The position numbers were made by a program, and so were the translations under genes. 35,054 nt of DNA, taken from positions 1-35,054 of the forward strand of contig JARHZW010000098.1 of the NCBI GenBank assembly GCA_029264685.1, written 5' to 3'. Within the stretch, counting starts at the first letter, position 1. Each line of letters begins with the position of its first letter. This document shows, in pieces, positions 7,973 to 24,851 of this stretch. The DNA comes from Candidatus Limivicinus sp. GTDB taxonomy: Bacteria; Bacillota; Clostridia; Oscillospirales; Oscillospiraceae. Below the pieces are notes generated by a model. The model had not been told where the DNA came from and did no database searches. It was given only the letters and a program-made list of their open reading frames with translations.

Positions 7973-8698
7973 TTATGGATTCCTGCTTTCCGAGTAAACA
8001 ATAATGCTGCTGTCTTTGAAGTCTCTGAAAGCATCACCGCTCGCAGAGTTTTTCTGTGCCTCCTCCGGTCTCCGCATAGCGGCGGAGCCTGACGGGGATT
8101 TTGAATTTTCATACAGTTCAAGATTAGGGCTTTCGCAGAAATAAGTAAAACCTAAAACACGGTCTCCGTATGCAGAATATACATTGCCCAGTCTTATGCC
8201 GGACTGAAAGACCACATAGCTTTCCATAAGCCGTTCTCCCTGTAAAAGCCGAACGGCAGCGTTGACACATTTTTCCGTTGGTACAAGAGTCTTAAATTGC
8301 CTTGAATTTACACCCTCGTACTGGCCCGGCTCAAAAATAACCTCGCTGATCGTATTGGGAAATTCCGGCGATGCAACACGGTTCATTATAACTTCTCCTA
8401 CGCACACAAGAAAATCATCCTTGAGCCGGTAATTTCCGGCTTTAAAACAGATGAATTTTGAAAGCAGGTACAGGTCGTCAAAGGAAAATGCCTTTTGGTC
8501 AGAGCCGCTGTCGGATAAGCAACGGTTCCAGTTCTCTTCTGCCATGTGGCCTGCCAGTATGTTCCCGTCTGCCGCAGCTTCAGCCATTACTTTTATGTAA
8601 TCAGGCTCAGGCAGGCTTTCTCTCAAAGCACAGGTACTGAGAGCCAATGAAACTATAACTGTCATAAAAAGAGCGAGAAATTTTTTCATGTTTTTCAC
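7973..8698 (-). CDS. SleB-like cell wall hydrolase family protein with signal peptide/possible lipobox
   Basis: Family core CVGEVIMNRVASPEFPNTISEVIFEPGQYEGV...PTEKCVNAAVRLLQGE matches the Hydrolase_2/SleB pattern. N-terminal MKNMKKFLALFMTVIVSLALSTC signal. Confidence 0.75.
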   Translation of the reverse strand: MKNMKKFLALFMTVIVSLALSTCALRESLPEPDYIKVMAEAAADGNILAGHMAEENWNRCLSDSGSDQKAFSFDDLYLLSKFICFKAGNYRLKDDFLVCVGEVIMNRVASPEFPNTISEVIFEPGQYEGVNSRQFKTLVPTEKCVNAAVRLLQGERLMESYVVFQSGIRLGNVYSAYGDRVLGFTYFCESPNLELYENSKSPSGSAAMRRPEEAQKNSASGDAFRDFKDSSIIVYSESRNP

Positions 8699-18610: not shown

Positions 18611-18639
18611 TTATCAATCTCGAAACCTGTGAATATACT
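18611..18639 (+). promoter_or_regulatory. Predicted sigma-A promoter TTATCA-N17-TATACT for the three-gene small-protein locus
   Basis: -35 at 18611-18616, -10 at 18634-18639, spacer 17; 23 nt upstream of the ATG. Confidence 0.5.
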
Positions 18640-18661
18640 GAAGTGAACGGAGTGTGGTTTA

Positions 18662-18901
18662 ATGCGGAATTTTGAAGAAGTAGGGAAGGAAATAGAGCGC
18701 CGTGGCAAGACGGAGCAGCTGAAAAAACTTGCCGAATCCAGCGACGGGGTACAGGTGGGTAAAATGGTTGACCCCGAAAAATTGGAAAAGGCTGCCAGAG
18801 AAGGGGACGGCGCAGCTATGCGTGGGATTTTAAACAGTGTTCTGAGCACCGACGAGGGAAAACGTCTGGCTCAAAACCTTATGAAGCTTATGGAAGATTA
18901 A
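18662..18901 (+). CDS. Uncharacterised small helical protein (79 aa), first gene of three-gene locus
   Basis: Intact ORF with RBS-like ggag; divergent from the phosphoesterase; tightly followed by the next ORF. Confidence 0.8.
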   Translation: MRNFEEVGKEIERRGKTEQLKKLAESSDGVQVGKMVDPEKLEKAAREGDGAAMRGILNSVLSTDEGKRLAQNLMKLMED

Positions 18902-18916
18902 GGAGGGGAACCTGCC

Positions 18917-19291
18917 GTGAGCGATTTTGAGGATAAGCTCAACAGCATTTTGAATGATCCTGCTCAGATGGATAAAATAGCTGGTCTTGCGAAAACGCTC
19001 ATGGGAGGCGGCACGGAAAAAGCTCCGCAGCAGGACACTGAAAAAGAGGGAAACAATAATTTCCTCAGTTCTATTTTGGGAGAAACTGACGGAGAGACCA
19101 TGGGTCGGATAGGCCGGATTTTAAGTGCCGCAAACTCCGAAGACGACAACCGGACGGCTCTGCTGAAGGCAATGGAACCCTATCTGTCGGAAAAGCGACG
19201 GAACAAAATGGATAAGGCAATAAAAATTGCCAGAATTGCCAAGGTGGCAAGGATGGCCTTGGGAGAAATGGGGGATGATGGCAGTGTATAA
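18917..19291 (+). CDS. Uncharacterised small helical protein (124 aa), second gene of three-gene locus
   Basis: Starts GTG at 18917 (gtgagcgattttgag) with RBS aggaggg; 15 nt after the preceding stop. Confidence 0.82.
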   Translation: MSDFEDKLNSILNDPAQMDKIAGLAKTLMGGGTEKAPQQDTEKEGNNNFLSSILGETDGETMGRIGRILSAANSEDDNRTALLKAMEPYLSEKRRNKMDKAIKIARIAKVARMALGEMGDDGSV

Positions 19292-19682
19292 CCGTTACGA
19301 GGGGAACACAGGCCGATTCCGCCGTGTGGACGACAGCTATCCGAGAGAAAACCGCAGCAGAGACGATTACCGAAGGGATAGCCGAAACGGCAGCACAGAG
19401 AGCGGCGGCAACGGGGGAGGAAACTGCGGCAGCACAGGCAGCAGTAATAACGGTAGTTGGAATAAAGGAGATAATAACTACAGCAACAGCCGAAGCGGTA
19501 TGAATTCTGCCCGACCACGGCGCAAACCGGGGCTTATAAAAGACCTTCAAAACCTGCTTCCCAACAGTATAGGAGACCTTGAGACGGAGGATTTGATCCT
19601 GCTTCTCATACTTTATCTGATGTACAGGGAGAGCGGGGACAGCGAGCTGCTGATAATTATGGGAGCTATGTTTCTGCTGTGA
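19275..19682 (+). CDS. Uncharacterised protein with Arg/Gly/Ser/Asn-rich low-complexity N-terminus and hydrophobic C-terminus
   Basis: ORF overlaps the upstream stop by 17 nt (ATG at 19275 or 19278). Ends in DLETEDLILLLILYLMYRESGDSELLIIMGAMFLL. Confidence 0.75.
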   Translation: MMAVYNRYEGNTGRFRRVDDSYPRENRSRDDYRRDSRNGSTESGGNGGGNCGSTGSSNNGSWNKGDNNYSNSRSGMNSARPRRKPGLIKDLQNLLPNSIGDLETEDLILLLILYLMYRESGDSELLIIMGAMFLL

Positions 19683-19699
19683 ATATCGTTATAAAAGCA

Positions 19700-19727
19700 T
19701 GGAGCAATGTTATAAAACATTGCTCCG
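19700..19727 (+). terminator. Bidirectional intrinsic terminator
   Basis: ggagcaatgtt-ataaa-acattgctcc followed by gtaatttttt. Confidence 0.82.
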
Positions 19728-19734
19728 TAATTTT

Positions 19735-23532: not shown

Positions 23533-23572
23533 CACCCTTTTCAGGAAATAATAGCCTGAAAGGGGTGTTTTT
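23533..23572 (+). terminator. Terminator-like hairpin after gltX whose 3' arm contains the predicted ypeB Shine-Dalgarno
   Basis: cacccttttcagg-aaataata-gcctgaaaggggtg-tttttt (13-bp stem with one G-U), then ATG of ypeB at 23574. Confidence 0.75.
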
Positions 23573-23573
23573 T

Positions 23574-24851
23574 ATGCGCAAAAAATATAAAATAGTATTA
23601 GGTACCTATATAACGGTGGGAGTTCTGGTTTCGGGGCTTTATATATGGCATAATCAGAAAACTCTTGCAGATTACCGCCTTGCTGCAAATTACAGCGCAG
23701 CCATGGCCTTTGAAGAGACCGTATCGGCAGCGAGAGGTTTGAGCGATGCCCTTGAAAAAAGCGTGTATGCGGTGGGCGGCTCAATGAGCGGAAAGGTGTG
23801 TTCCGAGATATACGCAAATGCTCTGGCGGCGGAAGCAGCGCTTTCCACTCTGCCTTTTTCCACTCTTGAGCTGGAGCAGGTGTCTGCTTTTTTGAACCGA
23901 ACGGGTGATTATGCGTATACCGTGAATTTCGGAGCCGTTGAGGATGGCTTTACAGATGAGCAGCGGACGGAATTTGCGGAAATGTCAGTGATTGCAGACA
24001 GCTTAACAGATTATCTGGAGGAACTGAGAAGCGGGGTTAATTCCGGAATTATCACAATGGATAGCAGAGAGGAGGACCGCAGAAATGTTTTTCCCGATGA
24101 TGAAACGGAAAAACTCAGCGCAAGGCTTTACAGATATGAAAAAGAATTTCAGCCTATGGCGGAGCTTATTTATGACGGCAAACACGGAAAAACTCAGGAT
24201 AAGGCCGTAAACGGAAATCTCAGCCGTGAGGAAATGATTGCGTTGGCCGCTCAATACGCAGGGGTAAAGCAGGAGGAGCTTCAGAAGGAATACGATTATC
24301 AGGGGACGGAGGGGCGCTGCTGCTACAGCGCAGGAGACATGAGCATATGCGTAAGTCCGGCGGGGGTTGAGAGTATGCAGAACAGAAGGCTGGTAGGGGA
24401 AATCAAAATAAGCAGGGAGCAGGCAGAAGCAATCGCTGAAGATTTTCTGGAAAAACAGGGCTTTGAAAATATGGAGCTTGTGGACGGAGAACCGGACGGG
24501 GCTGTGTACAATATGCGTTTCTGCAAACTGGAGCAGGATGCTCTGTGCCTTAATAATGAAATAAAGATTTCCGTAGCTATGGATAACGGAGCCGTTCACG
24601 GGCTGAACACGCTTTCCTATTCGGCCGGTGACACCGATGCCCAATGGAAAATCAGTCAGGAGGAGGCAATGAAAAGTATTCCGGACAGTCTTAAATGCGC
24701 CGCAGGTCGGAGGATAATAAAGCAAAGTCCGGCAGGGAGAGACTACGGCTGCTACGAGTTTTCATGCGCTGATGCAAGGGGCATGGGGGTTAGAATTTAT
24801 GTCGATGCCGACAGCGGAAAGCAATGCGACATAGTCTTTGAGAAAAAATAA
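23574..24851 (+). CDS. ypeB: Germination protein YpeB (PepSY-domain)
   Basis: Signal anchor, LADYRLAANYSAAMAFEETVSAARGLSDALEKSVYAVGG, STLELEQVSAFLNRTGDYAYTV, C-terminal PepSY-like repeats (SREQAEAIAEDFLEKQGFENMELV). Confidence 0.9.
   Translation: MRKKYKIVLGTYITVGVLVSGLYIWHNQKTLADYRLAANYSAAMAFEETVSAARGLSDALEKSVYAVGGSMSGKVCSEIYANALAAEAALSTLPFSTLELEQVSAFLNRTGDYAYTVNFGAVEDGFTDEQRTEFAEMSVIADSLTDYLEELRSGVNSGIITMDSREEDRRNVFPDDETEKLSARLYRYEKEFQPMAELIYDGKHGKTQDKAVNGNLSREEMIALAAQYAGVKQEELQKEYDYQGTEGRCCYSAGDMSICVSPAGVESMQNRRLVGEIKISREQAEAIAEDFLEKQGFENMELVDGEPDGAVYNMRFCKLEQDALCLNNEIKISVAMDNGAVHGLNTLSYSAGDTDAQWKISQEEAMKSIPDSLKCAAGRRIIKQSPAGRDYGCYEFSCADARGMGVRIYVDADSGKQCDIVFEKK

Follow-up and report, generated by a model that had tools for sequence, protein, structure and literature searches.

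Three small genes of Candidatus Limivicinus sp., here designated ORF1, ORF2 and ORF3 and together the triad, form one operon that is restricted to spore-formers and whose promoter class across Clostridia is of the sigma-K type. The triad probably helps to build or finish the spore envelope; this assignment is based on the timing of expression deduced from the promoter, on protein composition and on gene fusions rather than on any homologue. What is new is a sporulation operon that is widely conserved but has no name so far; the kind of system as such is not new.

Layout and conservation of the operon

The window, i.e. the whole stretch of 35,054 nucleotides that was analysed, carries the three genes head to tail at positions 18662-19682. 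ORF1 (18662-18901, + strand) starts with ATG and encodes 79 amino acids, and ORF2 (18917-19291, + strand) starts with GTG, has AGGAGGGG just 5' of the start codon and encodes 124 amino acids. A sequence-only reading of this DNA had described three intact, consecutive ORFs with 15 nt between the first two, exactly as found here. For ORF3 (19278-19682, + strand, about 134 aa) there is a choice between an ATG at 19275, which gives an overlap of 17 nt with ORF2, and an ATG at 19278, which gives a protein of 134 aa and an overlap of 14 nt. Since the homologues of ORF3 begin at the motif MAV[YI]NRY, the start at 19278 is probably the correct one; the overlap claimed earlier is thus real, but its length is better given as 14 than as 17 nt. 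The predicted terminator behind the gene set is a strong intrinsic terminator (19699-19728, + strand) with a 13-pair stem, a 4-nt loop and a T-tail.

The operon lies between a divergent upstream gene for a phosphoesterase, as named before, which is of the YfcE type, and a convergent downstream gene which had been called MraY-like. The latter encodes a glycosyltransferase of PF00953, but it matched WecA/TagO (6e-39) better than MraY (1e-25) and reached 91 bits against a cut-off of 192 bits for the mraY equivalog, compared to 134 bits with the WecA model. Because the gene is closer to WecA/TagO than to MraY, the label "MraY-like" is loose.

ORF2 was present in 48 of 60 related genomes and, by profile search, in 130 genomes of a sample of 243 that spans the class Clostridia; a search with a closer ORF2 alignment returned Oscillospiraceae-type MAGs only, Candidatus Limivicinus among them. 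Synteny was determined with iterated profiles at 93 loci centred on ORF2, which come from about 50 families and comprise 2574 ORFs. ORF3 was located directly 3' of ORF2 in 90 loci and ORF1 directly 5' of it in 86, each being found elsewhere four times, and both were in place in 83 of the 93 loci. Since the profiles were built from the very loci to which they were then applied, the E-values are optimistic, but the placement of the genes is independent of score. Recurrence of the three-gene order at this frequency in about 50 families demonstrates that the three ORFs are more than a chance arrangement, and the earlier proposal of one functional unit, kept together across Clostridia, is strongly supported. 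The genes outside the triad vary among families and encode a phosphoesterase, an FAD oxidoreductase or SleB; thus, the triad and not the surrounding region is the conserved entity. The FAD oxidoreductase is thioredoxin-reductase-like and is encoded divergently upstream of the triad at eight loci from five families. In one genome of family f71 a second ORF1-ORF2 pair was present, the ORF3 of which was not found.

Sporulation markers and promoter class

The gene for SpoIVA was found in 182 of the 243 class genomes and in 124 of the 130 genomes with ORF2 (p=3e-16). Since the remaining six carry SpoIIIAE, every genome with ORF2 (130/130) has a sporulation marker. Within the genus, dpaA is absent from 8 of 37 genomes, and ORF2 was found in none of these 8 but in 26 of the 29 genomes with dpaA (p=4e-6), where the losses of dpaA and ORF2 possibly go back to few independent events. 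The co-occurrence of SpoIVA and SASP with ORF2 in the genus agreed with the dpaA picture, with some noise added by incomplete assemblies. Because the genomes share ancestry, the p-values of all these co-occurrences overstate independence. The sporulation role, which had been put forward as something to consider and to check against spo genes, is nevertheless strongly supported by the markers in all ORF2-carrying genomes, by the joint loss with dpaA and by the mother-cell-type promoter described below.

The promoter proposed earlier, TTATCA-N17-TATACT, is present at 18611-18639. The region contained 7 promoter-like sites compared to 4.2 ± 2.1 in shuffles, and the window site alone is not above chance; nevertheless, a site is kept at this position in 20 of 23 loci of the genus, where it has a -10 element of the form [GC][AC]ATAnnnT, which resembles the -10 element of dpaA in the same genus. 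The promoter classes were calibrated in the genus with spoIVA and with dpaA, the latter serving as sigma-K control; YabG is absent from the genus. All 11 spoIVA promoters were of the sigma-E type and 19 of 21 dpaA promoters of the sigma-K type, with no crossing over. In the window copy (18611-18643, + strand; -35 element TTATCA(A), -10 element AATATACT) the -10 element is dpaA-like, whereas the -35 element has ATC instead of AC, and the fit to the sigma-K consensus is weaker here than across the class. ATC is usual in the genus, where 3 of 23 loci fit the AC pattern, and is intermediate between sigma-E and sigma-K. With a dpaA-like -10 but usually ATC at -35, the window promoter is classified as mother-cell type, probably sigma-K.

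Across the class, the sigma-K signature (-35 AC, N16/17, -10 CATANNNT; scanned as AC-N16/17-[CA]ATANN[ACT]T) was found upstream of ORF1 in 28 of 59 other loci but only in 7 of 115 control genes (p=4e-10). The sigma-E pattern was seen at 10 of the 59 loci and in 4 of the 115 control genes, and the sigma-A pattern at none of the 59. Control by a forespore sigma factor was considered and rejected, because SASP promoters do not resemble that of ORF1. In sum, the earlier prediction was right about the existence of the promoter, the position of which is conserved in the genus; the promoter is, however, probably sigma-K-like rather than of the sigma-70 type.

The three proteins and their relatives

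None of the three proteins matched a family of Pfam or NCBIfam, and when relatives of ORF2 (28 diverse sequences) and of ORF3 (17 sequences) were scanned as well, there were just scattered single-member chance matches. A profile search revealed no meaningful sequence relative of the triad proteins in the PDB, nor did their predicted structures match any PDB fold; the few weak PDB sequence matches were designed helical proteins, which reflects composition, and were set aside. This is in line with the earlier statement that no family could be named for them. The homologues do occur as a set and no member was found in a known family with an unrelated role, so that neither of the two observations named by the sequence-only reading as a refutation was made. 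A published description of the triad was not found in the full text of openly accessible papers, and the triad does not appear in the main text of a paper on the sporulation transcriptome of C. thermocellum.

ORF1 is soluble, is expected to be helical and carries the motif ..GD..AL..LL..LSTxEGxRLA... ORF2, which is also helical, consists of an N-terminal LxxILxDPxxM helix, a variable linker and a C-terminal helical hairpin with the consensus LLxAlKPYLsexRxxkxDxAi. Its AlphaFold2 model (80 sequences), which is good in the C-terminal half only (pLDDT 77-96 over residues 61-110), has helices at residues 59-85 and 92-119, with the invariant P88 at the turn. Paralogy of ORF1 and ORF2, prompted by a common N-terminal motif, was dropped after a profile comparison gave a probability of 2%.

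ORF3 has an N-terminal MAVYNRYEGNTGR motif, a disordered linker rich in R, G, S and N, an amphipathic helix and two short hydrophobic helices (ETEDLILLLILYLMYRESGDSELLIIMGAMFLL). Its model (60 sequences), in which overall confidence is low (pTM 0.31), shows a short N-terminal strand pair, the disordered linker and three helices (85-98, 103-119 and 122-133), of which the last two are hydrophobic and short. The layout of the tail is the same in nearly all families: acidic residues are followed by two hydrophobic stretches with an acidic turn between them. Such a tail would fit a membrane-inserting hairpin, but both tail helices are short, with about 12-17 residues each, which makes their insertion into a membrane uncertain.

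More distant forms were searched for with the ORF2 core motif. Of 58 SpoIVA-containing genomes without compact ORF2, 20 gave weak matches, whereas in 61 genomes without SpoIVA only the six already known ORF2 carriers were hit (p=3e-7). Many of the weak matches are proteins with a repeated hairpin motif, and often they also have one membrane helix, as in the case of proteins of 300-430 aa in the families f27, f59 and f76. At five loci these were seen to have an N-terminal membrane helix and at least three ORF2-like repeats, and the repeat-type genes are accompanied by a small convergent gene (74-81 aa) on the opposite strand. In the repeat-type membrane protein, the module is probably condensed into a single gene. 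In family f44, an operon found at six loci encodes a subtilisin-like protease, a protein in which the ORF2 motif is combined with a membrane helix at the C-terminus, a protein of 72-77 aa and a two-motif protein, and looks like a variant of the triad system with its own protease. The two-motif protein has an N-terminal CxxC segment. In two f59 genomes the ORF2-like protein is extended and contains a membrane segment, and the weak single matches in f58 and some other families could be chance. The occurrence of the ORF2 core in distant spore-formers, where it is repeated within one membrane protein, appears to tie ORF2 to a membrane. The membrane-anchored assembly suggested by the sequence-only reading is plausible, as deduced from the ORF3 model, the conservation of its tail and the membrane-helix fusions. 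Of the 182 genomes with SpoIVA, 38 showed no ORF2 of either form, compact or repeat, so that sporulation does not need the triad in every case.

A small number of genomes from outside the class also carry the ORF2-ORF3 pair. In one of them it adjoins Gly/Tyr-rich coat-like genes, and several have a protease-like gene next to it. At four of these loci, a conserved protease-like protein with the motif VVGVGxGxK..NNHVLANVTNG, a candidate spore protease, is encoded 3' of the pair.

Proposed role and comparison with known systems

The class-wide linkage, the restriction to spore-formers and the late-sporulation type of promoter make a role in the envelope probable, and on balance we favour, with reserve, the view that the triad is a late mother-cell operon under a sigma-K-type promoter which builds a small spore-envelope module. 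Late in sporulation, the mother cell would produce ORF1, ORF2 and ORF3 from one message. Through its tail, ORF3 would insert into or bind the outer forespore membrane, or else some other hydrophobic layer; its flexible linker would present the conserved N-terminal motif. The helical ORF1 and ORF2 proteins would join ORF3, ORF2 by means of its invariant PYL hairpin, and the three may then form a self-assembling layer or scaffold between the outer forespore membrane and the coat. Membrane insertion, mutual interaction and envelope function of the three proteins are all what we infer from the data above.

Alternatively, the triad could be a germination or cortex-lysis module that positions SleB or holds it inactive, as YpeB does in Bacillus. 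At six loci of the families f71, f30, f88 and f77, the gene that follows ORF3 in the same direction is of the SleB type (PG_binding_1 + Hydrolase_2), and the window encodes a SleB-like Hydrolase_2 protein (7976-8698, - strand) as well as YpeB (23565-24851, + strand), though these are not adjacent but about 15 kb apart. However, SleB adjoins the triad in only four of the families examined, with the phosphoesterase or the FAD oxidoreductase elsewhere, and it starts about 100-450 nt past ORF3, where it may have its own promoter. Further, the triad has a promoter of the mother-cell type, whereas SleB and YpeB of Bacillus are made in the forespore, and we consider this explanation unlikely. Less likely still is a non-structural late mother-cell function, either holin-like or otherwise permeabilising in mother-cell lysis or in membrane remodelling at spore release, with ORF3 as the membrane-active protein and ORF1 and ORF2 as its regulators. 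The sigma-K-type timing and the short hydrophobic hairpin tail of ORF3 would be compatible with such a function, but ORF3 matched no holin family, its large disordered linker and the extensively conserved soluble partners suit a scaffold better, and the repeat-type relatives combine one membrane helix with several soluble repeats. An ordinary vegetative cell-surface or housekeeping operon, which co-occurs with sporulation genes by shared ancestry only, would agree with the flanking phosphoesterase and WecA/TagO genes and with the phylogenetic non-independence that inflates all co-occurrence counts, but it is very improbable given the sporulation markers in every genome with ORF2, the loss of ORF2 along with dpaA within one genus and promoters that are of sporulation types and in no case of the sigma-A pattern.

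The spore-envelope module may be viewed more widely: the triad and its repeat-type relatives could represent an undescribed clostridial system of spore-envelope morphogenesis, which is built on a new helical-hairpin "PYL" module and replaces Bacillus assembly proteins that Clostridia lack. We put this forward tentatively and regard it as rather doubtful. Much of the anaerobic gut flora spreads by means of clostridial spores, yet a large part of the spore-envelope machinery of Bacillus has no clear counterpart in Clostridia; the triad is a well-bounded candidate for some of what is missing. Besides, it offers a simple genomic marker of sporulation ability for uncultured Clostridia.

Three known systems are comparable. 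One is formed by the sigma-K regulon operons of small coat or crust proteins in Bacillus and C. difficile, which, like the triad across the class, encode several small low-complexity or helical proteins and are transcribed late in the mother cell from an AC ... CATANNNT promoter. Unlike these, the triad has no sequence match to any catalogued coat family (Pfam, NCBIfam, wider sets and PDB), and its gene order is kept class-wide, whereas coat genes evolve fast. An analogy is also proposed to the SpoVM/SpoIVA and SipL/SpoVID recruitment system, in which a soluble assembly is held at the outer forespore membrane by a small protein that inserts into it; but SpoIVA is separately present in these genomes with a sigma-E-type promoter, and Pfam and NCBIfam searches of the triad gave no ATPase, LysM or SPOCS domain. 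Finally, the YpeB-SleB germination pair resembles the triad as a small sporulation operon with a membrane-associated component, and SleB adjoins the triad in the four families mentioned. In contrast to the sleB-ypeB pair of Bacillus, the two genes are separate in the window, where YpeB is encoded by its own gene at 23565, and none of the triad proteins is YpeB-like: Pfam and NCBIfam searches revealed no PepSY/YpeB, Hydrolase_2 or PG-binding domain in ORF1, ORF2 or ORF3.
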